Assembly (NCBI GenBank): GCA_944472135.2
Contig: OX235264.1
Location: forward strand, 95,800,319 to 95,864,318
Source: Trichobilharzia regenti
Taxonomy: Eukaryota > Platyhelminthes > Trematoda > Strigeidida > Schistosomatidae
Length of the DNA stretch: 64,000 bases
Reading direction: 5' to 3'
Shown one piece after another: positions 16,141 through 53,130 of this stretch. The notes below the pieces were generated by a model, which saw only the letters and a list, made by a program, of their open reading frames with translations, made no database searches and was not told the DNA's origin. Position 1 is the stretch's first letter, and every line of letters starts with the position of its first letter. The position numbers and the translations under genes are program-made.

Positions 16141-16511
16141 ATGAAGGTAAGACTGCCGTTTCTAACTTCATATTTACATTCTTTCCTACCTTGCTTCCTC
16201 CCTTCACTGACAGAATCTCACGCTCCTCATCTTCACCACAATTCTCATCGCTCTCATCTGCACACCAGGTAAGTGTGTTCACTGGTTGTTGGCCGATGCA
16301 CTGCGTTGCACAGTGAGATTCGAAACTGTGTAGAACTCTCTTCTGATTCTGTCCTAATCTCCACGTGTTCTCTCGTCGTGTAGGTGCTGACGGTATGCTG
16401 GCTATGCTCCCGGTGACAATCAGAGCTGTACTGGCACCGGTGCTCAAGTTGGGATGCAAATTCGTTCCTAAATTCCTGTTTCCGACTGACGAGGAGGTGG
16501 CCAGCTTCTAG
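16141..16511 (+). CDS. P1 secreted peptide gene, unit A copy
   Basis: Exon 1 ATGAAG (16141-16146, donor GTAAGA), exon 2 of 55 nt (16214-16268, acceptor CTGACAG, donor GTAAGT), exon 3 of 128 nt (16384-16511, acceptor TCGTGTAG, stop TAG). Product 62 aa: a hydrophobic signal peptide (MKNLTLLIFTTILIALI-), then a mature part starting near ADGMLAMLPVTIRA, with a hydrophobic helix, one Cys (KLGCKF), and an acidic end (TDEEVASF). Exon 2 length and phase equal those of P2. The mature motif M-x-x-M-L-P-x-T ... C aligns with P2, so the two are paralogues. A poly(A) signal AATAAA lies at 16585-16590. Secreted; function unknown. Confidence 0.82.
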
Positions 16512-16599
16512 TGAATACAAGCACACGTTACCTACCACTTGTTGTGTAGACGACCATTGTGAATCCAGAAATAGTCTTGATTGTAATAAAATCAGTGTG

Positions 16600-18423
16600 T
16601 GTATTTGATTGCGTTGCTTTTATTGTGTTTTTGTTATGAATGGAGTGGTGTGGTTAGTGATGATTCAGGTCGAGTGGTAGTAATTCTAGTGATATTGTTC
16701 AAGATGCGTAATTTTGGATTCGGAATTTACAAGAACCGTCATATGATGCATTTCGACGATTATGCGATACGTCTGTTCTTCGCTTTCAACGAGACAACGG
16801 GGATCTTCTGAGTCTTTCTGCATGCCTCCAAGAGATTCAAATATGCTAGAAGATATATCCGTATATTCCCTAGGATTATCTGTTAATTTCAACAAGCTTT
16901 TAAAACTGGTGAACTGCGTAAAAGAGAGCAGCTCCCAAGCAAATAATTTCACTCGCCACACCATTTATAAAACAAGATACAGTCACACAAATGAAAGCCT
17001 ATCTTCATGATATCGCAGCGTTTGTGGACGTGAATTCTGGTGAGAAAAATATTTTACGTGATGTCGGGTGACATATTTATCTGCATAAGTGGTAGGCCTT
17101 TCGGCGAGTTTATTGTTGAGAATAACGCAAGATAACAAATGGATCGGAAGACTCAGTGTGCATCGATTGGATTGACAAAAATCCACCAAATACCCCTCCC
17201 AGGTCTTTTGGAGAATGAAGCAAAGCATAGTGAGCATTCACACATAAGAACGTGACTGAATGAGCAAAGTATATTTGAACTGCTTCAAAATGAAGCGAAG
17301 CCTCTTCCGTACACCACATAACGGACCAATCAACACTGAGGCAATATTACTCAACTGGAAATATGTCACATCAAAATCGTCAAGTTTGGAAATATTGCCT
17401 ACATTACATACCCGTATGTACAATTGTATGTACGGGTGGTTGAAGATAATAATAAGATATCCATATTATACAGATGATGATGAATTGACAAGTGATCAAG
17501 CGCATGGGGAAATGTATTTCTTATGTGGCTCTCTGAATCACACACTGATGATTGGCTTTATATCGGAATTAGATAATACCTACCCAAAAGTACAGTGACG
17601 CCATTGACAGGCAGAATTACTCGATTACGTTTTGTATTAACAACTATGTTCAAACACATGGATCCTATAAAACCCAATTCACTGTGGTCACTCGTAATTT
17701 GCTGATCTTAACTGCCTGAAAACAGAATAATTAACCGATGGATTTGGAATAAAACTGCAGTGCTAAACATTCGGTTTATATTTCGAAATACTCAGAACAT
17801 CACAATTGCAAAGAGACCGTTATTTTCAAGTTGTGAATGGTGATATAACGCTTGGTAATTCAACCATCTACAACTGCATCAAAATCATCCACGTAAGGTA
17901 CACATCATCTCCATTATTCTCCCGGAATACTGTTACGAAATGTGTACTACTTTTATAGATGAATTTGATAAAAATGTCTCAAGAAACGTAAAATTACAGT
18001 AAATGTTATTTCGTCGATTTTGAGATATTAGGACTAATTCTGCTTTAATTTGACAAAAAATATTTTGTCTGGAAGATTAATTGAATCATCTGCATTAAAC
18101 CATCCAGTTCAGTGGGGCCAGTAACACTGAAATCAGTCACATTTCTTACCTAATATCCATAAGTGAAATCTCGTGAAATGCTTTGCATTGAGTGATAAGG
18201 CGATTTACCGTGTTGACCGATAATTAAGTAACATAGATATGTAAACGTGTCGGATGGCCGTGTATTCCTAGAAAGTGGTATATAAATCAGCTACACAGAA
18301 AAATCAAAATAAGGAACACTTCAACAGCAACCATTGTTTGTCAGCGATGTAGTGGAATGAATGCGGAAACATCCTTGAGAAGCTTTCATAAGTTGAACGT
18401 GTCGTGAAGTGAGCTACTGCGTC
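16600..18423. other. Unit A region downstream of P1
   Basis: Conserved in units B and C. The frames 16686-16964 (-) and 17260-17598 (+) stay open in all three copies. Coding is not supported: several changes in unit C alter residues, and no domain is recognisable. A palindrome of about 20 bp (CCCGTATGTAC / GTACATACGGG) lies at about 17411-17440. Confidence 0.45.
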
Positions 18424-18595
18424 TCATATACACAGTGGTTAGGACTGTCGCCGACCATGCATATAATCCGAGGTTTCATCCCTTGCTGACGCACACCTGA
18501 TATCTATGGTCGGCCTGCAAAATTTGGGCTATCGATATCCATGCTGAAAATTCCATACTTGTACCAAAAATACAGTGTGGAATCAAGCTGTAAAC
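18424..18595 (+). repeat. tRNA-derived SINE, second family (unit A)
   Basis: Head CACAGTGGTTAGGACTGTCG, then the body with CTGATATCTATGGTC. Shared by units A, B and C, so it predates the amplification. Confidence 0.65.
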
Positions 18596-18891
18596 ATGAT
18601 AAAGAAAATTTGTAGCTCAGGTGGATGATTTTGATGTGGTTGTGTTCTCTGAGCTGGATGGTTGATTTGCGAAACTTTCATCACCCTACTAGGTGACATC
18701 TTCAGCGCATACTTCAATTTGAAATGAGCTTTCAGATTTCTCCACGAGTTTATTAATTATCTCTCCCAAGCTGTAAACAAAAATAATGATAAAAAAATAA
18801 TGACAATCTGATGTATAAGCAGTTGTACGAAATTCCCGTGTGAATTCACACAACATTGGGTTAAACTTGATTCAGTTATATTTACCGGTGT

Positions 18892-19166
18892 TGATAGGAT
18901 CCCACATATTTTGGTATTGACTGTTAATTTTGCATATATGGTATATTATCATTCTCACACATTTTCGTATTGACTGTTAATCTTGCATATATGGTATCGA
19001 TAAATTCTTGCTGCATTATCGTACGAATGTAAAAGGACAGTTATGTGTCAGACACACAGATCACACTCTATCCAGTACCACGCAAAGGTCAACTCGACAA
19101 AGAAGAGCTCCGAAACCTTTTCAAATAGATCCAAAAAGCAAGTCCTACACTCTTTACGGGGGGAGG
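18892..19166 (+). repeat. Extra LTR start plus integrase tail upstream of the 5' LTR
   Basis: 18892-18990 is the first part of the LTR. It then switches inside a tandem repeat to the integrase C-terminal end and polypurine tract (18991-19166; same as 25108-25278). This reads as the remains of a second, head-to-tail element sharing the LTR, mostly deleted. The small minus-strand frame at 19048-19233 is a shadow of it. Confidence 0.7.
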
Positions 19167-19756
19167 TGATAGGATCCCACATACTTTGGTATTGACTGTT
19201 AGTCTTGCATATATGGTATATTATCATTCTCACACATTTTGGTATTGACTGTTAGTCTTGCATATATGGTATATTATCATTCTCACACATTTTGGTATTG
19301 ACTGTTAATCTTGCATATATGGTATATTATCATTCTCACACATTTTGGTATTGACCGTTAATCTTGCATATATGGTATATTATCATTCTCACACATTTTG
19401 GTATTGACTGTTAATCTTGCATATATGGTATATCATCATTCCCACACATTTTGTTATTGACTGTTAATCTCGCACATATGGTATATTATCATTTCTCACA
19501 CACTTTGTTATTGGCTATTAAGATCAATTATTTCAAATGCTGTTAGCTGTCCATATTGTTGTAAAATGTATAAATACCATGGCTTTCTTTGTCGTTGTTG
19601 TTGTACTACGATACACAGTCACAGTCCAGCCTTTGTCTTTTGATATTTGCATGCTTCACTGAATCGGAAGGTACGACAAGCAGATAGGCAGATTAGTTCA
19701 GGCGCAGACAGAACAAGGTGAAAACGTCTTCATTTTAATTCCCTACAGTTATAACA
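19167..19756 (+). repeat. Gypsy 1 5' LTR with 53-bp tandem repeats
   Basis: Starts TGATAGGATCCC, ends TATAACA. About six tandem units of roughly 53 bp (each containing TTGGTATTGACTGTTAATC and CATATATGGTATA) fill 19180-19510. The 3' LTR (25279-25752) has fewer units, 474 versus 590 bp. In the LTR U3 region such repeats may act as enhancers (inference). Confidence 0.8.
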
Positions 19757-19877
19757 AATTGGCGACGGGGTTTTACCCTAACTCATTGAAGCTATAACAA
19801 GCAAGCGACGACGCGTTTTATTCTGTTCAGCGCAGCTATAGATTATTTTTGACTGTGTTAATTACAACCCAATTACA

Positions 19878-20834
19878 ATGTCTATCTCTCTGGACGATCT
19901 CAAATCTATCTTGCAGCAGCAGCAAGTTCAGAATGAAGCAGCTCAACTAAAATTAATCGAAGCTCTCACTCAGAAGCTGCCCATTCAAGTTCCATCAACA
20001 TCTCATTCAGACAAATATGAAAGCATCTCAAATTCCATCAGTGAGTTCAACTACGACCCAATATCTGGTATCGTATTTGATGCATGCTTCAATCATTACG
20101 AAGACGTTTTCCGTATTGAATGCTACATGTTTGATGATGCTGCCAAAGTCCGATTGTTACTAAGAAAACTTGGTACTGTTGAGCACAACAGATATGTTAA
20201 CTTCATTCTGCCCAAGAACCCACGTGAGTTATCATTCGATGAGACAGTCACCGTTTTATCACAAATCTTTGGTGAACAGTCATCCATGTTTAATATTCGG
20301 TATCAATGTTTTCAGTTGACAAAAATGCCTTCCGATGATTATGTCACTTACGCTGGCAAAGTGAACAAGGAATGTGAAAGGTTCAAACCACACGAAATGA
20401 CATCAGATCAGTTCAAGTGTTTGATTTTTATTTGTGGGTTGAAGAACCCAGAAGATACTGACATAAAAACTCGACTTCTGTTACTCGTGGAACAAGATCC
20501 GAAAATGACTTTACAAATGGTGACAGCAGAATGCCTGCGCTTAATCAACTTGAAGCACGATACTGCTATGGTGGAGTGCAAACGACAGTCGTCTGAATTT
20601 GGTTCAATTAACACAGTGAAAAGTCCTCCGATCACCGTTAAGCACACAGCACGTCAGTCTCAGAATTCAGCTAAACCTCCTTCAGTGTGCTGGCACTGTG
20701 GTTCGTGGCATTTTGTCAAGTTCTGTCCTTTCAAGAAACATAAATGCCGTAATTGTCACCGTTTTGGACATAAAGAGGGTTACTGTCCACGGCAGAAAAA
20801 TCCTTCGGTGAGGAACAGAAGTAGTCGTTTCTAG
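19878..20834 (+). CDS. Gypsy 1 gag (left arm)
   Basis: 318 aa. Gln-rich start, a capsid-like central region (DDAAKVRLLLRKLG, then EQSSMFNIRYQC), and two zinc knuckles at about residues 271-303. The first is CWHC-x3-H-x4-C, the second CRNC-x4-H-x4-C. Gag packages the element RNA. It ends at a TAG that lies in frame with the downstream protease, while the related gag-protease at 45040-43505 has no stop there. The frame continues open until the CsRn1 insertion at 20910. The protein is identical to that in the right arm. Confidence 0.85.
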   Translation: MSISLDDLKSILQQQQVQNEAAQLKLIEALTQKLPIQVPSTSHSDKYESISNSISEFNYDPISGIVFDACFNHYEDVFRIECYMFDDAAKVRLLLRKLGTVEHNRYVNFILPKNPRELSFDETVTVLSQIFGEQSSMFNIRYQCFQLTKMPSDDYVTYAGKVNKECERFKPHEMTSDQFKCLIFICGLKNPEDTDIKTRLLLLVEQDPKMTLQMVTAECLRLINLKHDTAMVECKRQSSEFGSINTVKSPPITVKHTARQSQNSAKPPSVCWHCGSWHFVKFCPFKKHKCRNCHRFGHKEGYCPRQKNPSVRNRSSRF

Positions 20835-20909
20835 CTGAAACAATCTCCTCGAGTACAGACCATTTTCACAACTTCCAAAGTCGATTTCGCCAGCAAACGT
20901 AAGTACATT

Positions 20910-21390
20910 TGTATGGGACTAATATTAGAGTTCACTTTCATTCCAAATATAAAAGTAATAATCCAAGTCAGTGGAGTGTTAAATCACAATATATTACCAA
21001 AAATACAGTGACGAGTTATAGCAACAAAAATGATTACTTGGATATAAAGTCTAATTCCTCGGCTACAAATTAATTATATAATCCACGGGCACGTTAATTG
21101 TTTGGACTGCGTCTGCTGTAGCTGCTGTGTTCCGGTTGTAGAAATGTCTTCGGTTGAGAGTAGTAGGCTCCTACAATAAATCCGAAGTATACAACACTGT
21201 GTGAGTGGAGCAAGTAAGCAGAAGTGACCAGGGAGAATACGAAGTCTCCAACAGCAGAGTGTATTTTTCAATTGTCCCAGGAAGTTATATATATTTCAAC
21301 AAGAAGCGTTTTAAACAAAAATTATGTACAATATCTCGAATTTATACAAGTAACCAAAAAGTGTACAATCACATTGTTACGCACTCCACA
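20910..21390 (-). repeat. CsRn1-type 3' LTR (left arm)
   Basis: 481 bp, on the minus strand starting TGTGGAGTGCG and ending TCCCATACA, with a polypurine tract (CTAGGGGGGAG) just upstream in element sense. A 4-bp target duplication CATT flanks the element at 20906-20909 and 24553-24556. The small plus-strand frames at 21205-21451 are not genes. Confidence 0.8.
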
Positions 21391-21863
21391 CGGCTCCCCC
21401 CTAGAGGTCCAGAGAGACCACCGGAAAATGATGAGTAAAACTATGAAGTAAATAATAATAGTAATAGCAATTTTTGGTTAAAAATAGGGATATATTACAA
21501 CATGCATAAACGCGAGAAGGTATGTGAATCATGTAAAGTCTGAAAGCATATACAATGAGTTCAGCAATAAAAATTGAAATAGAAAGTCATGTCACTTAAA
21601 TTTGCACTAACCATGAACATAGATTTTTAATGTATAAAGAAAAATATGTAAATACACAGTAATTAAGGAGGGGAAAGAAACATTTAAAAAAATATGGATT
21701 AAAGATCAATAGTTTTTGAAAAGGACAATACCTGTTTTTTAGGTGAGATACATATAAATAAATAAATGATAGTAACATCAAAGTTTACGACGAAATACTA
21801 ACTGTCATGATGATAATGTCTAAACGAAAAAGATAATAATAATTTTTAATTATTTTTCTTTTG
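21391..21863 (-). other. CsRn1-type 3' untranslated region (left arm)
   Basis: AT-rich stretch between the integrase stop and the polypurine tract; mirrored at 32664-33136. Confidence 0.6.
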
Positions 21864-22534
21864 TTAGTCCTCAAAATGAACGTAGCGAGCCGGTTTACTG
21901 ATTTGCCGACCACTACGTGTGTGATATGGAGGGAGGATAAGACTTGGTGCCGGTGGGGTGGAATCGGATGTTTGATTATTTGATTGCGCGGCTGCCGATG
22001 TAGATTCGAAGTCGTTGTCGGTGTATGCGGGTTTGATTCGATCAATTGAAACAGTCTCTCGTCTTCCATTCTTGTTCACTGTAAAGTGTTTGTCTGAACG
22101 TTTAATAACTTGAAAGGGTCCTTCGTATGGAGGTTGCAATCCTTTTCTGATGGCGTCGACTCGAATGAAGACGAATTTGCAAGTTTGTAGATGTTTGTTG
22201 ATCTGATCTCTTCGGGTAGATTGTCGAGGTACTGTTGGTTGAAGTTGAAGCATTTGTCTAGTTAATCGGTTAGTGAAGTCGGCAATGTTCACGTCTGTGG
22301 AATCGGCTGAGGGGACTAGCTGTCCAGGCAAGGTTAGGTTGGTGCCATAGACAAGTTGAGCCGGTCTACATCCTAAATCTTCTTTGATAGTAGAACGGAT
22401 ACTAAGTAAAATCAAAGGTAAGTATTCACTCCACTTAGAGGTATCATTCTGCGCCATCAGGGAGCTTTTCAGTTGTCTGTGGAATCTTTCCACTAGACCA
22501 TTCGCTGCCGGATGATAGACTGTTGTGAAGATAT
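21864..22534 (-). pseudogene. CsRn1-type integrase C-terminal end (left arm)
   Basis: Minus-strand frame covering the last part of integrase: a HPAANGLVERFH block with the third catalytic acidic residue (Glu), a core end ending near RPAQLVYGTNLTLPG, and a C-terminal EGPFQVIKR module. It is cut at 22535 by the gag-only LTR element. The rest of the polyprotein (RT, RNase H, most of integrase) is absent in this arm. Identical to the right-arm copy at 31993-32663. Confidence 0.85.
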
Positions 22535-22539
22535 GTTTC

Positions 22540-24366
22540 TGTGGTGATTGACAATTTCTATGTCTGTATTGTTTAAAATACTTACTGTTGACTGTTGATA
22601 TGTTTCTTATATGAATTGCATAATAATTCCGCTAAATACAAATTCCTGATTTCTGCCCTCTCTGAGTTTTGGTTGGATTCGTGTAATTCAGTCATCTCGA
22701 AATACTAATATTCCAAGTACAATAAATTACTACAAATTGGCGTCGCGATGGAGCTAAGTAACCTGGGAAAATTCCCCATTAATGGGTCTCCGCGGGAGAT
22801 TGCTGATTATTTGGAATGCTTCGATGCGTGGTGCATTTCAAAGAATGTTCGGGATGACAAAATACCAGCACATTTCATCACTGCTATTGGGCTTGATGCA
22901 TATAGCCTAGTGAAGAATCTGGCGTTTCCAGATAAACCCATTTCTCTGCCATATGCTAAGCTCTGTGAAATTCTTATAGATCACTTCCACATAACTACTT
23001 TTGAGACGAGAGAGAGGGCTCAGTTCAATAAACTGGTGCGTGCTCCCAACCAGAAGATTCGAGACTTTATTCGGCAACTCCAAATACAAGCCTCAAACTT
23101 TAATTTTGGAGATCAGCTGCATACTCAACTACGTGATCGTCTAATTGCTGGAATCAATATTCCTAAATTGGAGAAAGAGTTAATTCAGATTCCTTCTTGT
23201 ACTTTTCAAACTGCTAAAGATGTATGTATTACATATGAAGATGTCAATAATGAATACTCTGCTCCCACTACGTCAGTGCCTGATGTTATGCTTTCTAAAG
23301 TCGAAAATACAACTGGTAATGGAAAGCAATCCAAACTGCCGTCCACACGTAATAGAATGCAGCGAGAGATCAAAAACATTAAACCGTGTTTATCCTGTGG
23401 AAAGTTACATCTACGAAGCACTTGCCGTTTTCGGGGTGCTAAGTGTCACAAATGTGGTAAAGTTGGACACATCAAGACGGTTTGCATAAGTTCGAATACA
23501 TATGTTGCTCAACATTCTTATAATTCTCCCAACCTGTCTAGCAAAATGGAGTCAATGTGTCTTTCAACCTTTCAAAATACTCAAGCCAATCCAATGAAAA
23601 CCTCCACTACAAGTTCGGCAACTCAAGTGTCAACTGTTTTCAAAAATGAGGTAGCTGAGTTGCAATGCGAACTGTCGAAAACACGAGAAAAACTGAATGA
23701 GATGAGAGAGCAACTGATTAAAATTGAGGAATTACTGCATATGCATAGACTGCGTCTGTCGAATGCAGGGCATACAAGTACCCGTGAAAGTCCTGCAAAA
23801 CTATTCAAATCTCGAATTCTCAGAAAGCATCTGATGTCCACGACTTCTAATGTACATTATTACAAAGGTAATAACTATAGACCTGTTGGAATTATACTAC
23901 AAAAAATGGGAAATCGAGTGGTGAAGATATTAGACATCAAAGATCACTCAGTTCATAACGGACACCTGGAAAAAGTGACAATAAATGAAGTAGGTCGTTC
24001 CAATTATAATATTATTGATTCCGCTAATAATCCTGATTTTGTAGATAATTCAGAAATAGGTCCAGATAATACTGATGAAAATAGTATCACAGAATCAGTT
24101 AGTTCGAAGCTACTTGCAAGCAAACCGAGACATCGCTATAAATACGCGAGGAGATATTCGAGGTGTGGCGGATGTGGTGATTGACAATTTCTATCTCTGT
24201 ATTGTTTAAATACTTACTGTTGACTGTTGACATGTTTCTTATATGAATTGCATAATAATTCCGCTAAATACAAATTCCTGATTTCTGCCCTCTCTGAGTT
24301 TTGGTTGGATTCGTGTAATTCAGTCATCTCGAAATACTAATATTCCAAGTACAATAAATTACTACA
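22540..24366 (+). mobile_element. Gag-only LTR retrotransposon (TR-GAG type), left arm
   Basis: 1827 bp: a 195-bp LTR (22540-22734, TG...CA), a primer-site-like AATTGGCGTCGCG, one 478-codon frame, and a 194-bp LTR (24173-24366). No protease, RT or RNase H, so it must borrow enzymes from a full element. The flanking 5-mers differ (GTTTC left, GTGGA right), unlike the right-arm copy, which has matching GAAAC. This shows that the left copy is a recombinant of two insertions. Confidence 0.85.
22748..24184 (+). CDS. Gag with integrase-tail fusion of the TR-GAG element (left arm)
   Basis: 478 aa. A gag-like N-terminal half (YLECFDAWC, FETRERAQFNKLVR), two zinc knuckles at residues 214-246 (CLSC...C then CHKCGKVGHIKTVC), a predicted coiled coil at about 301-338, and near 377-412 a module RPVGIILQKMGNRVVKILD. 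That module resembles the C-terminal domain of gypsy integrases (inference). This would be a gag fused to an integrase tail by internal deletion of a full element. The start ATG follows the primer site by a few bases. The stop lies inside the 3' LTR. Open and identical in both arms. Confidence 0.8.
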   Translation: MELSNLGKFPINGSPREIADYLECFDAWCISKNVRDDKIPAHFITAIGLDAYSLVKNLAFPDKPISLPYAKLCEILIDHFHITTFETRERAQFNKLVRAPNQKIRDFIRQLQIQASNFNFGDQLHTQLRDRLIAGINIPKLEKELIQIPSCTFQTAKDVCITYEDVNNEYSAPTTSVPDVMLSKVENTTGNGKQSKLPSTRNRMQREIKNIKPCLSCGKLHLRSTCRFRGAKCHKCGKVGHIKTVCISSNTYVAQHSYNSPNLSSKMESMCLSTFQNTQANPMKTSTTSSATQVSTVFKNEVAELQCELSKTREKLNEMREQLIKIEELLHMHRLRLSNAGHTSTRESPAKLFKSRILRKHLMSTTSNVHYYKGNNYRPVGIILQKMGNRVVKILDIKDHSVHNGHLEKVTINEVGRSNYNIIDSANNPDFVDNSEIGPDNTDENSITESVSSKLLASKPRHRYKYARRYSRCGGCGD

Positions 24367-24552
24367 GTGGAGCAAGTAAGCAGAAGTGACCAGGGAGAAG
24401 GCGAAGTCTCCAACAGCAGAGTGTATTTTTCAATTGTCCCAGGAAGTTATATATATTTCAACAAGAAGCGTTTTAAACAGAAATCATGTAAAATATCTCG
24501 AATTTATACAAGTAACCAAAACGTTTACAATCACATTGTTACGCACTCCACA
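24367..24552 (-). repeat. CsRn1-type 5' LTR, outer part (left arm)
   Basis: Matches the first about 186 bp of the LTR at 33137-33617. It is followed by the target duplication CATT and gypsy 1 protease. The inner part of this LTR and the whole gag-pol interior were lost by recombination at the gag-only element. Confidence 0.8.
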
Positions 24553-24556
24553 CATT

Positions 24557-28321: not shown

Positions 28322-30162
28322 TGCAGCTCGGCATCATCAGACCCTCCAATAGTCCTTGGTCTTCGCCCTTACACATGGTGCCTAAAGCTGATCATGATTG
28401 GAGGCCATGTGGGGATTACCGACATTTAAACAATGCCACAGTTCCCGACCGTTATCCTATTCCTCATCTTCATGATTTCTCCCTGACATTACACGGAAAA
28501 ACCATTTTTTCTAAAGTAGACTTGGTCAGGGCCTATCACCAAATACCAGTTGCCCAAGAGGATATCGAAAAAACGGCCATCATCACACCTTTCGGTTTGT
28601 TTGAATTTCTCCGCATGCCATTTGGCCTAAAGAACGCAGCACAATCCTTCCAACGTTTCATGGATCAGGTCACACAAGGTTTGGACTTTGTATTTGTATA
28701 TATCGATGACGTTTTAATTGCTAGCTCGTCGCCCGAAGAACATACTGATCACCTCACCATCTTATTTCAACGATTTGAGCAATATGGAGTCGTCATTAAC
28801 CCCAAAAAGTGCATATTCGGTGTCTCCTCTATACAGTTTCTGGGACACCACATAACCGCGAATGGTATTACGCCTACGGAGGAAAAGATAGAGTCCATCA
28901 AAAACTTCCCCGAACCAGATTCACTCAAGAAGGTCAGACGTTTTTTGGGGATGTTTAATTTCTATCGGCGTTTCATTCCTTCGTGTGCCTCCATCGTCCA
29001 GCCGTTAACCGACCTCCTTAAAAATGATCCTAAAAAGTTTCAGTGGTCAGCTGAAGCACACGAATCATTTTGCAACGCAAAAGATGCCTTATCCAGAGTC
29101 ACTATGCTATCCCATATCAACCCCGAAGCGTCGCTTATTTTGTGCACAGATGCCTCCCAAGTAGCTGTAGGGGCAGTATTACAACAAAAGATGAAGGGCG
29201 AAGTCACCCCACTCGCATTCTTTTCTAAGAAGTTGGAACCGGCTCAGACACGATACAGCACTTTTGGGAGAGAATTGCTGGCCATATATCTTGCAGTGAA
29301 GCATTTCAGTTACTTACTACAGGGCCGGCATTTCACTATTTTTACTGACCACAAGCCCCTGTGTCATGCTTTCACTACTTCACTCGATAAACACTCCCCT
29401 AGAGAAGCCAGACAGTTGGATTATATCTCCCAATTTTCAACCGACATCCAGTACATCAAAGGGGATGCGAACGTGGTAGCCGATTCTCTTTCAAGAAGTG
29501 ACATTAACCAGCTCCAAACGTCGGTAGACATCAGTCTTGATCGTATGGCTCAATTACAAAGAGATGACGTTGAACTCCAAACCTGCCGCAGAAACTCTTC
29601 CTTACAGCTCAAAGATGTGCCTATCCCCTTATCAGATGCAACCATAGTCTGCGATGTATCTACCGGCACTAATCGTCCATTTGTCCCTCTCAGTTGCCGA
29701 AAAGCATTGTTCGAACATTTACATTCGCTTTCTCACCCTGGAGTACGCGCCACGGTCAGACTGATCAGCGAACGCTTCGTGTGGCCTAAAATGAACTCTG
29801 ACATTCGGAGATGGGCACGAGAATGTATCCAATGCCAATGCTCCAAAGTACACCGCCACACTATTACAACCCCGAAGACGTTTGAATTACCCGAAAGGAG
29901 ATTTCAGCATATCCATATAGATATCGTGGGACCATTGCCAACATCAAGGGGATATACACATATCCTGACAGCGATTGATAGATTTACTCGTTGGGCTATT
30001 GCATGCCCCTTAAACGACATATCTGCTGAAAACGTTGCTTTAGTTTTTCTCGACCGTTGGGTGTCAAACTACGGTGTACCAACTACTATTACATCCGACC
30101 GCGGTCCTCAATTCCAATCGACACTCTTTCGCGAACTGACGAGACTTCTGGGAGTGAAACTG
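28288..30162 (+). pseudogene. CsRn1-type RT, RNase H and integrase (interrupted)
   Basis: RT with [14 protein letters not shown], and the catalytic YIDDVLIAS (about 28700-28725). RNase H with [13 protein letters not shown] and FTDHKPL. Integrase with a His-His-Cys-Cys finger ([10 protein letters not shown] ... CIQCQC), the first Asp in HIDIVGPLP, and the second Asp in [10 protein letters not shown]. The frame is cut at 30162 by the gag-only element. The remainder, including the catalytic Glu, lies at 31993-32663. The element has the full enzyme set in pieces. Confidence 0.88.
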
Positions 30163-31987: not shown

Positions 31988-31992
31988 GAAAC

Positions 31993-32663: not shown

Positions 32664-33136
32664 CAAAAGAAAAATAATTAAAAATTATTATTATCTTTTT
32701 CGTTTAGACATTATCATCATGACAGTTAGTATTTCGTCGTAAACTTTGATGTTACTATCATTTATTTATTTATATGTATCTCACCTAAAAAACAGGTATT
32801 GTCCTTTTCAAAAACTATTGATCTTTAATCCATATTTTTTTAAATGTTTCTTTCCCCTCCTTAATTACTGTGTATTTACATATTTTTCTTTATACATTAA
32901 AAATCTATGTTCATGGTTAGTGCAAATTTAAGTGACATGACTTTCTATTTCAATTTTTATTGCTGAACTCATTGTATATGCTTTCAGACTTTACATGATT
33001 CACATACCTTCTCGCGTTTATGCATGTTGTAATATATCCCTATTTTTAACCAAAAATTGCTATTACTATTATTATTTACTTCATAGTTTTACTCATCATT
33101 TTCCGGTGGTCTCTCTGGACCTCTAGGGGGGAGCCG
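32664..33136 (+). other. CsRn1-type 3' untranslated region and polypurine tract
   Basis: AT-rich; ends with CTAGGGGGGAGCCG (polypurine tract) just before the 3' LTR. Confidence 0.6.
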
Positions 33137-33617: not shown

Positions 33618-33692
33618 AATGTACTTACGTTTGCTGGCGAAATCGACTTTGGAAGTTGTGAAAATGGTCTGTACTCGAGGAGATTGTTTCAG

Positions 33693-38020: not shown

Positions 38021-38390
38021 CTAGAAGCTGGCCACCTCCTCGTCAGTCGGAAACAGGAATTTAGGAACGAATTTGCATCCCAACTTGAGCACCGGTGCCA
38101 GTACAGCTCTGATTGTCACTGGGAGCATAGCCAGCATACCATCAGCACCTACACGACGAGAGAACACGTGGAGATTAGGACAGAATGAGAGGAGAGTTAT
38201 TGCAGTTTCGAATGTCACTGTGCATCACAGTGCATCGGCCAACAACCAGTGAACACACTTACCTGGTGTGCAGATGAGAGCGATGAGAATTGTGGTGAAG
38301 ATGAGGAGCGTGAGATTCTGTCAGTGAAGGGAGGAAGCAAGGTAGGAAAGAATGTAAATATGAAGTTAGAAACGGCAGTCTTACCTTCAT
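38021..38390 (-). CDS. P1 secreted peptide gene, unit B copy
   Basis: Exon 1 38390-38385, exon 2 38317-38263, exon 3 38148-38021, all splice sites GT/AG. The predicted protein is identical to the unit A copy. The two exon-3 differences (GAC/GAT and CCG/CCA) are synonymous, while intron 2 carries about ten changes and a length difference. Conserved exons within a drifting intron argue for function. The minus-strand orientation places it divergent from P2(+) at 41341 as in unit A. The plus-strand frames here (37994-38188) are shadows. Confidence 0.82.
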
Positions 38391-38457
38391 TGTTCTTGTC
38401 GATGTTTGACTATTTGTGTGAGTGAGTGAGTTAGTGAGTGAGGTGGAAATCCTCATG

Positions 38458-38465
38458 CTTATATA
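38458..38465 (-). promoter_or_regulatory. TATA box of P1, unit B
   Basis: TATATAAG on the minus strand, same distance from the ATG as in unit A. Confidence 0.65.
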
Positions 38466-40316
38466 GTATTCACTTGTCCAACAATGACTGCATAGATTGA
38501 TTGAAGTGTCGTTGACTAACCTGACTTGTCAATCATATGAATGAATGACCATTTAGTGGTTTCTTCACTTGATATTTTTTCGTGAAACTGATGGACCGGT
38601 GATTTGAGGTTTAGGTGTCTCGATGAAGAGATTACCGAGAATTCTTCTAGTTGAATATTTGTGTGTTGTTATGTGATATTGTGTGTTTCTAATTACCCTG
38701 TTCATGTTTGTTTATGGAAACTGCATCATGCTTTATGATGATTCACCTTAGTGAATTAGAAAGTTTTCTCGTGCGATAAGTGGCTAGTTCGAGCATAATT
38801 TCCGTTGGGTCATCAGGAAGTCAGGAGTGATTCAGCGTATTGACTCTTTGCACGGAATTTATTTCCATGCTGTACAATCGTAATCTCATGTATATAGTTT
38901 TTAGGAAATTTTATCCGGTGAGTGAATTGAACCATAAATAGGAACAAATAAAGTATTAATAGTATGAAATGTAAATACAATGATTGTGGTTATATTCATA
39001 TTAAATATGAAAGGATAAAACAAGTAATGTCATATACACATTAATTCTTAGGATATATAACTGTTGAAAGGGGCGTAAAATTCTGGGAACAATAGGCAAA
39101 TCAAATTTTGCGTAACACGAAGTGAGATTTGATGACACAGTATGTAATAGTACCACAAACTCATTTCAATTGCATTCCATACTATTATTTCATGAAACCA
39201 TACCTTTGTTTCAATAAGTGGATGAGCTGTCGAATCCACATATATTCTCAAAATCTCCCCAAGTGGAAAGCCAGAGTGGCATTGCTTACAATAATGTAAA
39301 TTAGGTGGAAGAGAGGGTACACAGATGCTGCATTATGGTAAGAATGTTGACGTTTCAGTTCCACCTTCTCAGTGGCGCTGGAAGTAGTGCCAGCCTGGTT
39401 GTATCAGCCTAGTAATATTCTGTGAATGTTGGTGGAATGTGAGTGAACGTGTTTGTGGTGACAGTAGAACTATCAGTGTCAGTTGTCACTGTGATGTATG
39501 TAGGGGGAGAGGCTGGTTACTGCGTGTATTTTAGCAGGAGAGGTGTGTTAATCTGTGGATGGATGGATAATGCTGATTGTGTATTTGTGTGTACTGGTGT
39601 ACTGGTGTGTGGATGTTTGTGTGCATTTGTGTATATTTCGGCTGACAAATAATGAGTGTTGTGTATTGATGAAATAGAAGTCGATTTGTTTTCAGTCAGT
39701 GTCGTCAATTATTGAGTGGTGGCGTTATTGTTGAGATTTTGACTTGATTCAATGTTATGGAGAGGAAAGGAGGAGTTCCGCGCATTGTAGGATGGTGATA
39801 ATCAGGATATTAGCGAGAGTTTCTGTCCCTGGGTGAATGTGTGTGAGTATTGGTTACACTGACAATCAAAATGTTGACTGTGGTTTATCACTCAGCCCAG
39901 GCCAGTTTCTCCATACCGACTGTGTGAGAGATGATGATTTCGCTCGCCGTTGTCAATCCGACTGGATGATTAACCAACAAGACTGGCCCCCATGCAATTC
40001 CTGGGTATATGGAAGGCCGGTCAGACCTGGAGCCATACGCATATTATAACTGATAAACACACCTAACAATATGTTAGAACCAGTCAGAAGGCAAGCCTCC
40101 TGCCACTCACTCTGCAATTCATATGAATTTGTCAACTCCATCGAAAATGTCAGTGTCTCTAATCAAAACACTTTTTTCCTTCACGTCCTCTAGTGAAACA
40201 CAGGGCGTCAACCTAGGGCTTGAAGTTTTCGTATCAGTGTTTATTTTTACATGTTGTATTTGCTGGCCTCATTCCCAACCTTTCATCTTTATTAGCATTA
40301 TTTCTGGCTTAGTGAG
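38466..40316. other. Unit B intergenic region between P1 and P2
   Basis: Mirror of the unit A spacer without the Penelope insertion. The join at about 39848-39856 shows the empty target site. Confidence 0.5.
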
Positions 40317-40400
40317 GTAAAGGAGTGCGTCGGCCTGGATCGAAACTCAGATTATGTGCATGGTCGGCGAGCGTACTAACCGCAATGCTACAGACGCCCA
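40170..40400 (-). repeat. tRNA-derived SINE shared with unit A
   Basis: Counterpart of 12072-12303; absent from unit C. Confidence 0.7.
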
Positions 40401-40429
40401 CCCAAGGAGCTATCACTGTATACAAATAT

Positions 40430-41140
40430 CACACTGATTAACACAATATGGAACACGTGCGAAAACATTGATTCATACAGGATCTACATTGGTATACTCA
40501 GTGACTACTTGAAGGAACTACAGTTTCAAATGCATCCTAATTATCCAAATCAATCCTAATAATGATGAAATATATTGGCGAATGAATGGTATATTAACGG
40601 GCTCGTTATTAGGCCCAGTGATTGCAGATTGCTTCATTTCAAAACACCAGAACACATAATTGAAGAAAATGGTTGACGGATTTGGGTTTTACAAAATATA
40701 CGTGGATGTCACTTCCAATATCCTGATTAATGAGGGAATTCGGAGTTTAATCTGGATACTTTCGACAACTGCCACCCTAGAATCCAGTTCACATTCGAGA
40801 AGGAGTTATGCTCAAAACATTTTCTCTACATTCAGCTAACAAGACGTGACCAAGATGGAACACTAAAGAGATCCACCTACAGGAAGCCGACGTGAAGCGA
40901 ACAACTCACTAACTCTCATAGTTCGGTGGCTCCATATGCGACATTCAGCATCACCAGTAAATCAAACCAAAACATCTACAGCATCTGGAACACTAAAAAT
41001 AATGAAGACAGAAAACCACATCGAATATTTCGCCACAAAATCCGTAAAGCGTAAACTAGGGAAACACCCAAAAATTCTCCTCCCAAAATACACCTCACAA
41101 ATAGTTCAAACACGCCGACTGACAACATGGCCTATCTGCT
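40430..41140 (+). pseudogene. Old Penelope-like relic within unit B
   Basis: Counterpart of 11340-12050; its RT block NGILTGSLLGPVIADCF is at about 40587-40640 with frame breaks around it. Confidence 0.55.
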
Positions 41141-41270
41141 ACCCTGTCATATTCAGTCATATAATCATTCACTTCTCAAATCAAATTCAAATGTCACTCA
41201 TACATCAAGAATTCACCTGAAAAGAACCAATGAATTACAGGAAAAACAAGAATCAATTTACCCGATTGGG

Positions 41271-41280
41271 TGTATATATT
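41271..41280 (+). promoter_or_regulatory. TATA box of P2, unit B
   Basis: TGTATATATT, about 68 bp before the ATG at 41341. Confidence 0.55.
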
Positions 41281-41340
41281 TCCAGCTAGAATTCCCGTCA
41301 GCACAATATTCCCAATCACCTCTACCCCAATCAACACAAA

Positions 41341-41845
41341 ATGAAGGTGAGTGTAAAATTCTAGTCAAGTAATTGTCTCTCTCTCTCCCTCTCTCCCTAT
41401 CGGGAAATTCTATCAGTGCATCTTCCTCCTCATCTGCCTAACCGTCCTCGTCAGTCAAACGCAAGGCTTGAGTAAGTTCACGAGATTTGTTGACAGATGA
41501 ATTTATGAATACATCAATGTTCCCATTTCGCGATAATGATGATCTGTTTCTCTTCATTTTTCGCCAACCCCCTCCTCTCTGTAAATCAAAATAATGCCAA
41601 ATCACAATACAAAATACTCAACACAATGCATCACATCCAATGCCACTAATGCACAAATGCACACTTGATTCAACTCAGTTCTCGATAAGATGTTCAACAT
41701 TCTCCCTCCGACATTGAAGAAGCTGGTCAAGAAGGTGGTCCATTGGGCTTGTCCGAATGAGAGGGCACCGAGCGTAGGTGGTGGGGCATCAGATGTGACG
41801 ACTACGAAGAAGGTGACGAAGACGGTGAAAGAATCTCGCAAATAA
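41341..41845 (+). CDS. P2 secreted peptide gene, unit B copy
   Basis: Exon 1 41341-41346 (ATGAAG, donor GTGAGT), exon 2 41417-41471 (55 nt), exon 3 41679-41845 (167 nt, stop TAA). 75 aa: signal peptide to about residue 19 (TVLVSQTQG), then a basic amphipathic helix (LPPTLKKLVKKVVHW), a single mature-part Cys, GGGAS linker and Lys/Thr-rich tail (TTTKKVTKTVKESRK). Intron 1 has a long CT-rich tract (CTCTCTCTCTCC). No canonical AATAAA is seen in the next 200 bp. The net charge is strongly positive, opposite in character to the acidic end of P1. Role unknown. Confidence 0.8.
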
Positions 41846-42734
41846 TCGAACCTCGTCGGGGTCATCATCCAATGTCGGCATATATTTCTGGTCATAATGA
41901 AGCTGAATTGTGCGAACTGCCAACTGTTCAATATTTCAGATATTTTCACATAAATTTAGTTCGTTGCATGCATTGCTTTATTTTCTTGTTGGATGGAATG
42001 CTATCCTAGACGGCACTTGGTGCCGGCCAACATCTTTCTTTGACGGTGTGCAAGCTCTGTAAATAAGTGCATGAATGAATCCGAACTAATACAGTAGGAG
42101 ATAATTGAAAGATCTCAGTCGAGACGTGAAAATCTTTCATAAGGGTACTGTAGAAATCGGAAATGAGGAAGATGGAATGCATACAGGCGACGCTCGTAGA
42201 ATGCATTTGCATACTGCATTGAAAATACCTAGTACAGATGCCTCACTTCCAGAATGTTAGAGTTTCGATAGCCAGAAAAAAGAATCCCGATGTATTTGAA
42301 ACCATCACTGCATTTCGCTTTCTGCCTATTTTACATCATAAATTAGTAGCAGCTGTGTCACAGCTACATTCTTTCTGGTTTGACAGTGCGAACATCTATC
42401 AGTTATACACGAAGCTAAACATCACCAGTGTGACCATAATAATAAATGGGCTTAATCTAAACAGTTTATTTGTTACAGCATGAAATTCTCAGCAAGTTTA
42501 TCACAGAGTTGTTAAAAGAGCGTCGATGCTCTTGTCAATTTCGGCCCTCGTCATGTAGTGGTATTCCACACGAATGGGAACAACTATGTATTAAGAATGA
42601 TACTTAATTATATCTGTGGTGAGAGCTTTCTCCTAGCCAAAATTGGGAGACAGCAATTTACGTCAATGTTTACCTCCCAAATCCTGGTCATGAGAAAAAC
42701 AAGAACAAAGACTTAGCGTGGGCGGATACGATTC
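41846..42734. other. Unit B region downstream of P2
   Basis: Shared with unit C; unit A lacks part of it. Small frames at 42006-42212 (-) and 42238-42483 (+) have partner frames in unit C but no recognised domain. Confidence 0.4.
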
Positions 42735-47954: not shown

Positions 47955-48436
47955 CGTACCGCATCCAAATTTTGGGTCACAGTACTACGTTTACGAATAT
48001 GTGTTACAAATCTTACGTTTCGTCAGACTAGCTATGACTGCAAATATAAGACTCGTAACAAATAAGTCGACTGGTTGGTTTCACCATAGAAATTTGCACA
48101 GATGTGCAGCAGTTCGAGTTGCCACTTTCCATGCAGCCCACAAAGCCAATAAATTATAAATCTATTCTCTATGTCAGACTATCAGAATAATGTGGTGCAT
48201 TCCACTGGATCATAGAGCAGTTCAAAAGTCAAACATTCAATACACAGATATGTAACGACAGAAGAAAAGAGCCAGGCAGCAGATCGTTTGTTGAGAAAAT
48301 CAACAGATACTTATATAATTTTATGTATATTATTACAGGCTATGATAAGGAGAGAAACAGCGTCTTAGAATTGGTATTTCTCCCGCTGAAAGTTAATCTG
48401 TCATCTCTTTGTGGCCTTCGCTTTCATGGTCAGATC

Positions 48437-48625
48437 ATATATTTATTTTATTTTTGATTACAGCTTGATTCCACACTGTATTTTTTGGTACTAGTATGGA
48501 ATTTTCAGCGTGTGATATCGGTAGCCCAAATTTTGCAGGCCGACCATAGATATCAGGTGTGTGTCGGCGGGGGATCAAATCTCGGACCATGTGCATGGTC
48601 GGGGAGAGTCCTAACCACTGTGCCA
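48437..48625 (-). repeat. tRNA-derived SINE shared with unit B (unit C)
   Basis: Counterpart of 42735-42935. Confidence 0.7.
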
Positions 48626-49527
48626 CCGACTCACATGTGAATCGTATCCGCCCACGCTAAGTCTTTGTTCTTGTTTATCTCATGACCAGGATTTGGGAGG
48701 TAAACATTGACGTAAATTGCTGTCTCCCAAATTTTGGCTAGGAGAAAGCTCTCACCACAGATATAATTAAGTATCATTCTTAATACATAGTTGTTCCCAT
48801 TCGTGTGGAATACCACTACATAACGAGGGCCGAAATTGACAAGAGCATCGACGCTCTTTTAACAACTCTGTGATAAACTTGCTGAGAATTTCATGCTGTA
48901 ACAAATAAACTGTTTAGATTAAGCCCATTTATTATTATGGTCACACTGGTGATGTTTAGCTTCGTGTATAACTGATAGATGTTCGCACTGTCAAACCAGA
49001 AAGAATGTTGCTGTGACACAGCTGCTACTAATTTATGATGAAATATAGGTAGAAAGCGAAATGCAGTGATGGTTTCAAATACATCGGGATTCATTTTCTG
49101 GCTATCGAAACTCTAATATTCTGGAAGTGAGGCATCTGTACTAGGTATTTTCAATGCAGTATGCAAATGCATTCTACGAGCGTCGCCTGTATGCATTCCA
49201 TCTTCCTCATTTTCGATTTCTACAGTACCCTTATGAAAGATTTTCACGTCTCGACTGAGATCTTTCAATTATCTCCTACTGTATTAGTTCGGATTCATTT
49301 ATGCACTTATTTACAGAGCTTGCACACCGTCAAAGAAAGATGTTGGCCGGCACCAAGTGCCGTCTAGGATAGCATTCCATCCAACAAGAAAATAAAGCAA
49401 TGCATGCAACGAACTAAATTTATGTGAAAATATCTGAAATATTGAACAGTTGGCAGTTCGCACAATTCAGCTTCATTATGACCAGAAATATATGCCGACA
49501 TTGGATGATGACCCCGACGAGGTTCGA
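48626..49527. other. Unit C region downstream of P2
   Basis: Shared with unit B; no supported gene. Confidence 0.4.
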
Positions 49528-50032
49528 TTATTTGCGAGATTCTTTCACCGTCTTCGTCACCTTCTTCGTAGTCGTCACATCTGATGCCCCACCACCTACG
49601 CTCGGTGCCCTCTCATTCGGACAAGCCCAATGGACCACCTTCTTGACCAGCTTCTTCAATGTCGGAGGGAGAATGTTGAACATCTTATCGAGAACTGAGT
49701 TGAATCAAGTGTGCATTTGTGCATTAGTGGCATTGGATGTGATGCATTGTGTTGAGTATTTTGTATTGTGATTTGGCATTATTTTGATTGACAGAGAGGA
49801 GTGGGTTGGCGAAAAATGAAGAGAAACAGATCATCATTATCGCGAAATGGGAACATTGATGTATTCATAAATTCATCTGTCAACAAATCTCGTGAACTTA
49901 CTCAAGCCTTGCGTTTGACTGATGAGGACGGTTAGGCAGATGAGGAGGAAGATGCACTGATAGAATTTCCCGATAGGGAGAGAGGGAGAGAGAGAGACAA
50001 TTACTTGACTAGAATTTTACACTCACCTTCAT
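49528..50032 (-). CDS. P2 secreted peptide gene, unit C copy
   Basis: Exon 1 50032-50027, exon 2 49956-49902 (55 nt), exon 3 49694-49528 (167 nt, stop TAA). Splice sites as in the other copies. 75 aa, same as unit A including Ile in the signal peptide, and otherwise as in unit B. The exon-3 codons for the Gly-rich linker agree with unit B at the nucleotide level and differ silently from A. Third intact copy. The 115-codon frame on the plus strand (49424-49771) is antisense to exon 3 and is not a gene. Confidence 0.8.
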
Positions 50033-50090
50033 TTTGTGTTGATTGGGGTAGAGGTGATTGGGAATATTGTGCTGACGGGAATTCTAGCTG

Positions 50091-50102
50091 GAAATATATA
50101 CA
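50091..50102 (-). promoter_or_regulatory. TATA box of P2, unit C
   Basis: GTGTATATATTTC on the minus strand, as in unit A. Confidence 0.55.
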
Positions 50103-50239
50103 CCCAATCGGGTAAATTGATTCTTGTTTTTCCTGTAATTCATTGGTTCTTTTCAGGTGAATTCTTGATGTATGAGTGACATTTGAATTTGATTTGAGAA
50201 GTGAATGATTATATGACTGAATATGACAGGGTAGCAGAT

Positions 50240-50950
50240 AGGCCATGTTGTCAGTCGGCGTGTTTGAACTATTTGTGAGGTGTATTTTGGGAGGAGAATT
50301 TTTGGGTGTTTCCCTAGTTTACGCTTTACGGATTTTGTGGCGAAATATTCGATGTGGTTTTCTGTCTTCATTATTTTTAGTGTTCCAGATGCTGTAGATG
50401 TTTTGGTTTGATTTACTGGTGATGCTGAATGTCGCATATGGAGCCACCGAACTATGAGAGTTAGTGAGTTGTTCGCTTCACGTCGGCTTCCTGTAGGTGG
50501 ATCTCTTTAGTGTTCCATCTTGGTCACGTCTTGTTAGCTGAATGTAGAGAAAATGTTTTGAGCATAACTCCTTCTCGAATGTGAACTGGATTCCAGGGTG
50601 GCAGTTGTCGAAAGGATCCAGATTAAACTCCAAATTCCCTCATTAATCAGGATATTGGAAGTTACATCCAGGTATTTTTGTAAAACGCAAATCCGTAAAC
50701 TATTTTCTTCAATTACGTGTTCTGGAGTTTTTACATGAAGCAATCTGCAATCACTGGGCCTAATAACGAGCCCGTTAATATACCATTCATTCGCCAATAT
50801 ATTTCATCATTATTAGGATTGATTTGGATAATTAGGATGCATTTGAAACTGTAGTTCCTTCAAGTAGTCACTGAGTATACCAATGTAGATCCCGTATGAA
50901 TCAATGTTTTCGCACGTGATCCATATTGTGTCAGTCAGTGTGATATTTGT
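50240..50950 (-). pseudogene. Old Penelope-like relic within unit C
   Basis: Counterpart of 11340-12050, slightly more diverged. Confidence 0.55.
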
Positions 50951-52684
50951 AAACAGGGATATCACTTTCGGTGAGAGTATATTTTGATTAGAGACACTGA
51001 TATTTCCGATGGAGTTGACAAATTCATATGAATTGCAGAGTGAGTGGCAGGAGGCTTGCCTTCTGACAGGTTCTGACATATTGTTAGGTGTGTTTATCAG
51101 TTATAATATGCGTATGGCTCCAGGTCTGACCGGCCTTCCATATACTCAGGGATTGCATGGGGGCCAGTCTTGTTGGTTAATCATCCAGTCGGATTGACAA
51201 CGGCGAGCGAAATCATCATCTCTCACACAGTCGGTATGGAGAAACTGGCCTGGGCTGAGTGATAAACCACAGTCAACATTTTGATTGTCAGTGTAACCAA
51301 TACTCACACACATTCACTCAGGGACAGAAACTCTCGCTAATATCTTGATTATCACCATCCTACAATGCGCGGAACTCCTCCTTTCCTCTCCATAACATTG
51401 AATCAAGTCAAAATCTCAACAATAACGCCACCACTCAATAATTGACGACACTGACTGAAAACAAATCGACTTCTATTTCATCAATACACAACACTCATTA
51501 TTTGTCAGCCGAAATATACACAAATGCACACAAACATCCACACACCAGTACACCAGTACACACAAATACACAATCAGCATTATCCATCCATCCACAGATT
51601 AACACACCTCTCCTGCTAAAATACACGCAGTAACCAGCCTCTCCCCCTACATACATCACAGTGACAACTGACACTGATAGTTCTACTGTCACCACAAACA
51701 CGTTCACTCACATTCCACCAACATTCACAGAATATTACTAGGCTGATACAACCAGGCTGGCACTACTTCCAGCGCCACTGAGAAGGTGGAACTGAAACGT
51801 CAACATTCTTACCATAATGCAGCATCTGTGTACCCTCTCTTCCACCTAATTTACATTATTGTAAGCAATGCCACTCTGGCTTTCCACTTGGGGAGATTTT
51901 GAGAATATATGTGGATTCGACAGCTCATCCACTTATTGAAACAAAGGTATGGTTTCATGAAATAATAGTATGGAATGCAATTGAAATGAGTTTGTGGTAC
52001 TATTACATACTGTGTCATCAAATCTCACTTCGTGTTACGCAAAATTTGATTTGCCTATTGTTCCCAGAATTTTACGCCCCTTTCAACAGTTATATATCCT
52101 AAGAATTATTGTGTATACGACATTATTTATATTGTCTCTTCATATTTAACTCGATTATAACCACAATCATTGTATTTACATTTCATACTATTAATACTTT
52201 ATTTGTTCCTATTTATGGTTCAATTCACTCACCGGATAAAATTTCCTAAAAACTATATACATGAGATTACGATTGTACAGCATGGAAATAAATTCCGTGC
52301 AAAGAGTCAATACGCTGAATCACTCCTGACTTCCTGATGACCCAACGGAAATTATGCTCGAACTAGCCACTTATCGCACGAGAAAACTTTCTAATTCACT
52401 AAGGTGAATCATCATAAAGCATGATGCAGTTTCCATAAACAAACATGAACAGGGTAATTAGAAACACACAATATCACATAACAACACACAAATATTCAAC
52501 TAGAAGAATTCTCGGTAATCTCTTCATCGAGACACCTAAACCTCAAATCACCGGTCCATCAGTTTCACGAAAAAATATCAAGTGAAGAAACCACTAAATG
52601 GTCATTCATTCATATGATTGACAAGTCAGGTTAGTCAACGACACTTCAATCAATCTATGCAGTCATTGTTGGACAAGTGAATAC
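50951..52684. other. Unit C intergenic region between P2 and P1
   Basis: No SINE and no Penelope insertion here, so this is the closest to the ancestral spacer. Spacer frames at 51442-51633, 51498-51707 and 51899-52102 recur in other units without coding signs. Confidence 0.5.
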
Positions 52685-52692
52685 TATATAAG
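52685..52692 (+). promoter_or_regulatory. TATA box of P1, unit C
   Basis: TATATAAG, 75 bp before the ATG at 52760. Confidence 0.65.
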
Positions 52693-52759
52693 CATGAGGA
52701 TTTCCACCTCACTCACTAACTCACTCACTCACACAAATAGTCAAACATCGACAAGAACA

Positions 52760-53130
52760 ATGAAGGTAAGACTGCCGTTTCTAACTTCATATTTACATTC
52801 TTTCCTACCTTGCTTCCTCCCTTCACTGACAGAATCTCACCCTCCTCATCTTCACCACAATTCTCATCGCTCTCATCTGCACACCAGGTAAGTGTGTTCA
52901 CTGGTTGTTGGCCGATGCACTGTGATGTGCAGTGACATTCGAAACTGTGTAGAACTCTCTTCTGGTTCTGTCGTAATCTCCACGTGTTCTCTGATCATTT
53001 AGGTGCTGACGGTATGCTGGCTATGCTCCCAGTGACAATCAGAGCTGTACTGGCACCGGTGCTCAAGTTGGGATGCAAATTCGTTCCTAAATTCCTGTTT
53101 CCGACTGACGAGGAGGTGGCCAGCTTCTAG
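52760..53130 (+). CDS. P1 secreted peptide gene, unit C copy
   Basis: Exon 1 52760-52765, exon 2 52833-52887 (55 nt), exon 3 53003-53130 (128 nt, stop TAG). Same 62-aa protein as in units A and B; ACG/ACC in exon 2 and CCG/CCA in exon 3 are silent. Intron 2 is nearer to unit D than to A at its 3' end (acceptor preceded by GATCATTTAG, also in D). AATAAA follows at about 53204-53209. The plus-strand frame at 52694-52891 reads through intron 1 and is an artefact. Confidence 0.82.

Follow-up and report, generated by a model that had tools for sequence, protein, structure and literature searches.

Two sister branches of a putatively secreted small-peptide gene family, multiplied together and largely head-to-head, in Trichobilharzia regenti

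The schistosomatid fluke Trichobilharzia regenti, one of the bird schistosomes, causes swimmer's itch and takes a migratory route through nervous tissue. A 64-kb stretch of its 954 Mb assembly (C3:95800319-95864318, hereafter the window) holds seven small genes of two kinds, P1 and P2, which we read as a real, on average constrained and co-amplified pair of secreted-peptide gene families whose function we infer; the gene models, their paralogy and pairing, the average purifying selection and a fixed Cys at residue 45 are taken from the sequence itself. P1 and P2 appear to be old sister branches of one family, multiplied together and mostly head-to-head, and the best explanation overall, to which we give a probability of about 0.45, is that they are secreted amphipathic-helix peptides acting on membranes at the host interface. 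Peptides of this kind are already known as short amphipathic trematode secretions, and the paired arrangement is apparently new as judged from the titles and abstracts listed by literature searches, none of the titles listed being on paired secreted-peptide genes in schistosomes. The heavy amplification, precise models, fixed Cys register and two sister chains make tissue, partner and membrane activity directly testable, and the amplification of a small-peptide family largely as divergent gene pairs turns co-expression and heterodimerisation into a concrete question.

All four P1 genes of the window encode precursors of 62 amino acids (aa): P1a (16141..16511, plus strand; coding exons 16141-16146, 16214-16268, 16384-16511), P1b (38021..38390, minus strand; 38390-38385, 38317-38263, 38148-38021), P1c (52760..53130, plus strand; 52760-52765, 52833-52887, 53003-53130) and P1d (62968..63338, minus strand; 63338-63333, 63265-63211, 63095-62968), the last with two leader substitutions in its protein, L4F and I12V. 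The three P2 genes encode 75 aa: P2a (10629..11132, minus strand; 11132-11127, 11056-11002, 10795-10629), P2b (41341..41845, plus strand; 41341-41346, 41417-41471, 41679-41845) and P2c (49528..50032, minus strand; 50032-50027, 49956-49902, 49694-49528). Every one of the seven loci starts with ATGAAG followed by GTAAG or GTGAG and continues with an exon 2 of 55 nucleotides (nt), while exon 3 measures 128 nt in 4/4 P1 and 167 nt in 3/3 P2 genes, and of the two GT-AG introns one follows codon 2 and the other follows base 1 of codon 21. A strict scan for this plan (ATGAAG, GT[AG]AG, an open hydrophobic 55-nt exon and a donor) gave seven matches in the window and none in 60 simulated windows drawn from an order-2 Markov model, and a looser scan that allowed any second codon and an exon 2 of 43-76 nt returned the same seven genes and no others. 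A preliminary description of this DNA had proposed these seven loci with an ATGAAG exon, a 55-nt exon and a last exon, and its start coordinates and the lengths it gave for the first two exons agree with ours in 7/7 cases; its picture of small flatworm precursors with a hydrophobic leader is likewise borne out by the models, though the model scan itself required a hydrophobic stretch.

The flanks of these genes add to the models unevenly. A TATA-like string precedes the ATG by 68-75 nt in each of the seven genes of the window and by 64 nt in P3, a gene type from an older cluster described below, and because of this spacing in all seven, exon 1 probably carries the 5' untranslated region, with the 6-nt exon being merely its coding end. 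No such string was found at the corresponding place in three P1 copies elsewhere (95286330, 95295052 and 95342580). In P1a, TATATAAG stands 75 nt 5' of the ATG and AATAAA 73 nt 3' of the stop, and AATAAA-type signals follow the stop by 69-73 nt in the P1 genes generally. A point that counts against the reading given above is that the three P2 genes have neither AATAAA nor ATTAAA within 250 nt 3' of the stop.

As read from these models, P1 and P2 are paralogues of one family: each of the 16 distinct complete precursors, which together represent 37 gene copies, carries its Cys at residue 45. They share exon phases, leader length and a register in which Pro30 and Cys45 coincide in 16/16 of these proteins, each with a single Cys from residue 21 onward; the scan itself required a Met, an LP-like pair and a Cys, with their spacing left loose. 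A BLASTP comparison of P1 with P2 aligned 45 residues without gaps, 14 of them identical, at an expect value (E) of 2e-4 for this single comparison, and shuffled P2 sequences reached the observed score in 0/20000 cases for the whole protein and in 48/20000 for the exon-3 part alone. The relatedness that the preliminary description had proposed thus stands, as does its alignment of the mature parts as M-x-x-[MI]-L-P-x-T, a helix and one Cys, and its statement that the tails differ in charge: tails of the P1/P3 type carry a net charge between -2 and 0, those of the P2/P4 type one between +1 and +4.

Across the assembly we count at least 23 P1-type and at least 26 P2-type mature exons, these copy numbers being lower bounds since the genome search scores only the best candidates. 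At least 23 genome matches came from P1 (E up to 0.001) and at least 46 from P2 (E up to 10), the latter comprising 26 mature exons and 20 leader exons. Most of the mature exons (45/49; 21 P1-type and 24 P2-type) fall in a main cluster at C3:95.27-96.07 Mb, and the other four (two P3, two P4) form an older cluster at 38.267-38.304 Mb, 57 Mb away. A genome query with P4 gave no further mature exon and one extra match at E 2.56; P3-like copies elsewhere in the genome may be missed. A stretch of about 400 kb without a family match (C3:95.373-95.776 Mb) separates two parts of the main cluster.

Complete models were obtained for 13 P1, 20 P2, two P3 and two P4 copies, 37 in all, of which 35 came from a scan of the window and the cluster loci and the two P4 copies were read by eye; models were counted by genome coordinate. 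Loci L001-L008 stayed outside the scan, being covered by the window or by later loci. The scan gave 40 start positions, from which five were dropped: four were other ATGs in genes already counted, and the fifth, at 96002294, had paired a P2-like leader with a P1-type exon 3 far off, across an 873-nt intron. The last filter required MK and a 55-nt exon 2, so that the constancy of these two features is partly due to selection of models, and the scan preceding it (any second codon, exon 2 of 46-70 nt) yielded one other model only, with a 64-nt exon 2. The rigid exon plan of the preliminary description therefore needs qualifying, because it holds for 7/7 genes in the window but not for three P2-like leaders outside it, which make up a third class of leader, reading MKFN..., whose exon 2 is 64 nt long, at 2738 (plus strand) and 9582 (minus strand) of locus L020 and at 3795 (minus strand) of locus L021. 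In L020 an MKFN leader is followed by a short P2-like reading without Cys. In the main cluster, 12/45 mature-exon copies (8 P1-type, 4 P2-type) did not yield a complete model, and in two of these a stop interrupts exon 3; such incomplete copies entered only the mature-exon count and the order test below.

The two types probably separated before the main and the older cluster arose, because P3 groups with P1, P4 groups with P2 and each cluster contains both. An unrooted tree (nine sequences, 45 columns) separates the P2 copies plus P4 from the rest with 99% ultrafast bootstrap support and splits the P1 copies from P3, P2 and P4 with 75; its remaining nodes have 29-60. With a root between the two types, P3 joins P1 and P4 joins P2, and the tails point the same way.

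Within the main cluster, P1 and P2 stand head-to-head in 16/44 neighboring intervals, compared with a mean of 5.7 and a maximum of 13 in 20000 label shuffles; this order test counts incomplete copies too, at exon-3 distances of 2.7 to 13.4 kb. The window holds three such pairs, with ATG-ATG distances of 5009 (P2a/P1a), 2951 (P1b/P2b) and 2728 (P2c/P1c) bases. Two observations weigh against giving this pairing a meaning of its own: the 16 intervals are not independent, because copies were duplicated as units that carry their orientation with them, and the order in the older cluster is P4+ P3+ P4+ P3-, interleaved rather than head-to-head. The pairing may reflect shared duplication alone. The head-to-head order, the wider cluster, the copies 57 Mb away and the inverted repeat given further below all go beyond what the preliminary description had covered.

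The copies are on average under constraint, as seen in the proportions of nonsynonymous relative to synonymous differences (pN/pS). For P2 these ratios were 0.149 in the leader, 0.049 in the core and 0.154 in the tail (105 pairs from 15 distinct sequences), and for P1 they were 0.317, 0.382 and 0.175 (45 pairs from 10 distinct sequences), the pairs being not independent and the values therefore describing average constraint. Average purifying selection is thus indicated on leader and mature parts alike. The plan of a conserved leader with a diverging mature exon, invoked in the preliminary description, does not fit these averages, which are well below 1 in both parts, but is seen in some distant pairs: nonsynonymous divergence (dN) was higher in the core than in the leader for P1a against the copy at 96025325 (0.363 and 0.070), P3 (0.837 and 0.450) and P2a (0.909 and 0.699). 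In P2 against the copy at 95289197 it was the tail (0.317), not the core, that changed faster than the leader (0.115), and between P2a and P4 the core was not faster (0.269, leader 0.288); the P2a/P4 tail comparison was ignored as it is not codon-aligned.

These ratios bear directly on whether the copies could be without function, carried along by segmental duplication and held similar through recent copying and gene conversion. Retroelement open reading frames and inverted repeats within the window fit such a history, as do the 12/45 main-cluster copies without a complete model, among them the two with a stop inside exon 3. We consider it highly improbable all the same, since pN/pS lies well below 1 across distinct copies and the 37 complete models keep exon phases and Cys45 at protein identities down to 31-47%. 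Among the window P1 genes, exon 3 shows 0-2 site differences, all silent, and intron 2 shows 0-13 of about 115. Because P1d and P1c are identical over intron 2 and exon 3 inside flanks that have diverged (51/257 aligned sites downstream and 37/268 upstream, plus gaps), the sequence suggests a gene-conversion tract in P1d at 62968-63338.

As for what the products would do, we infer secretion, membrane action and dimers, together with stage and tissue. Exons 1 and 2 would provide a signal-peptide-like leader, and exon 3 would supply a first, short helix, then a Leu-Pro break and a second helix ending in the sole Cys of that exon, which we propose is an amphipathic helix followed by a charged, flexible tail that is near neutral to acidic in P1/P3 and basic in P2/P4. 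AlphaFold2 places the mature helices at 20-27 and 31-47 in P1 and at 19-27 and 31-44 in P2. We computed the hydrophobic moment for the best 18-residue core stretch on the Fauchere-Pliska scale with our own script rather than Heliquest, and charge for the 22-residue core. Fifteen of the 20 P2 copies have a moment of 0.58 and a core charge of +5, P4 has 0.61 and +3, P3 has 0.61 and +2, and P1 copies range over 0.25-0.39 (0.39 in 11/13) with +1 to +3; shuffled sequences reach the moment in 0.15-0.8% of cases for the majority P2 form, P3 and P4 and in 1.4-1.7% for the majority P1 form. In the excerpts of the schistosome literature cited here, the MEG-26 helix is described with a hydrophobic moment above 0.4 and a net charge beyond 3 (PMC5825161).

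In view of what is known of small amphipathic MEG products, we hold membrane binding at the host interface to be the most likely mechanism, at somewhat short of an even chance. The secreted helix would bind the membranes of host cells and probably destabilize them, in the way supposed for the short helical MEG peptides of the Schistosoma oesophagus. MEGs 9, 12, 26, 27 and 28 are described as small peptides expressed in the head and predicted to form an amphipathic helix (PMC4671649), and in the parts of two reports cited here the small amphipathic oesophageal MEGs of schistosomes are proposed to destabilize blood cells (PMC4671649, PMC5825161). Two helices of MEG-8.2 are reported as haemolytic when made as synthetic peptides (PMC11601278), and MEG-24 and MEG-27 as binding liposomes and agglutinating red cells (PMC10526429), each as given in the excerpt of the source.

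Several results weigh against membrane action of this kind. Confidence in the AlphaFold2 models is low (mean predicted local distance difference test scores of 65.5/52.6 and predicted template modelling scores of 0.35/0.30, from three-row alignments), and the stretch tested for amphipathicity was the best of several and so biased toward it. On the Fauchere-Pliska scale most forms have an amphipathic core; five P2 copies are marginal (moment 0.45, charge +3, shuffles 4.6%), as is one P1 form (0.35, shuffles 4.4%), and the P1 form at 96025325 is not significantly amphipathic (0.25, shuffles 34%). P1 lacks significant amphipathicity on the Eisenberg scale (moment 0.316, reached by 16.5% of shuffles). 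The leaders also contain Cys (C18 in P1), and because of this the number of Cys left after secretion would depend on the putative cleavage site.

This last point touches the lone exon-3 Cys, which could give disulfide-linked dimers, possibly P1-P2 heterodimers. We regard a P1-P2 disulfide dimer as possible, if doubtful. One exon-3 Cys in each chain at the same residue, different tail charges and the presence of both types in the old locus as well as in the recent amplification are the reason to think further of P1 and P2 as partner chains in a secreted heterodimer that is obligate and disulfide-linked, itself an unlikely arrangement. If true, it would make a two-component secreted peptide system, and we know of none of such a kind from flatworms.

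The same proteins are already in UniProt, where they are listed without function as uncharacterized T. regenti proteins, a point that the preliminary description did not have either. Spliced P1 is 100% identical to the 62-aa A0AA85KLR1, the 75-aa A0AA85KNL7 is identical to P2b and 99% identical to P2a, and the P4 protein found with a P3/P4 profile matches A0AA85KGZ0 letter for letter; such database models are not proof of transcripts. The protein searches with P1, P2 and the P3/P4 profile, which need shared exact words, gave no relatives outside T. regenti, and because they had just 1, 1 and 9 candidates the absence from other species is weak evidence. A Pfam search accepting E values up to 10 assigned neither P1 nor P2 to a family, and nothing in PDB matched P1; PDB matches of P2 at E 1.7-1.8 were dismissed as chance. 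Unexplained gene products are numerous in T. regenti: among its 20 most transcribed genes, orphans are reported to number 10 in cercariae and 8 in schistosomula, according to an excerpt of PMC4749378.

The genes might instead be the Trichobilharzia members of the schistosome MEG-26 family, not recognized by name. MEG-26 is described as a head-expressed family with a signal peptide and an amphipathic helix and with species-specific duplications, its members numbering seven for S. japonicum, a further seven for S. mansoni and three for T. regenti (PMC5825161, in part). A short, putatively secreted peptide with a probable amphipathic helix, duplicated within the species, is what P1 and P2 would have in common with MEG-26, MEG-12 and other short oesophageal MEGs. 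The MEG-26 signal peptide is also split, as is the P1/P2 leader with MK in exon 1 and the rest in exon 2, a likeness taken from an excerpt and useful as a lead only. Compared by description only, P1 and P2 differ from MEG-26 in having three coding exons, a non-symmetrical 55-nt exon 2 and a longer exon 3, and in forming two paired branches with different tail charge. The three protein searches, moreover, returned T. regenti proteins only and none that bears a MEG name, and most P1/P2 coding sequence lies outside tiny symmetrical exons; we judge membership of MEG-26 unlikely. With MEGs in general, P1 and P2 share being small parasite products with a leader and a very short coding part in exon 1. 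MEGs are defined by most of the coding region lying in very small symmetrical exons (PMC4350168, in part), whereas here the coding exons measure 6, 55 and 128/167 nt, the bulk lies in exon 3 and exon 2 is not a multiple of three; because most of their coding sequence lies outside such exons, P1 and P2 are not canonical MEGs. The helminth defence molecules (FhHDM-1, Sm16), of which family members are reported in T. regenti in the cited part of PMC5825161, are secreted trematode proteins with amphipathic helices and so resemble the proposed P1 and P2 peptides when compared by description only; Pfam, as noted, assigned P1 and P2 to no family.

Another reading assigns the secreted products a role inside the worm, in eggshell, gland lumen, reproductive tract or signalling, with amplification for dose and without action on host cells. 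Many copies and low average pN/pS would suit dose amplification, but cationic amphipathic helices and an apparent lineage restriction are, we would argue, commoner in secretions at the host interface, and we consider an internal role rather unlikely.

Two of the three window pairs lie in a large inverted repeat. Its left arm (10389..24368, plus strand) carries P2a/P1a, its right arm (30159..42086, minus strand) carries P1b/P2b, and two pieces of the left arm, 10389-12631 and 14680-24368, are 97.8% and 99.4% identical to the right; the second piece pairs with 39851-30159, giving 9.7-kb arms of 99.4% identity. A third copy of the unit, at 48380..55514 with P2c/P1c, is 98.3% and 98.8% identical to the right arm. 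The longer P2a-P1a spacing is due to an insert at 12632..14679 (plus strand) with a reverse-transcriptase open reading frame (RVT_1), which may be Penelope-like; it is absent from the other two unit copies, which retain the empty site, and AATACT stands on either side of it. The spacer of the inverted repeat, about 5.8 kb, holds retroelement open reading frames. Arrays of a 53-bp tandem unit occur at 19178-19521, 25319-25518 and 35006-35349. Three type I hammerhead ribozymes scored above the Rfam gathering score, at 5396-5441 (minus strand), 57527-57571 (minus strand) and 57703-57747 (plus strand), the latter two on opposite strands about 130 bases apart.

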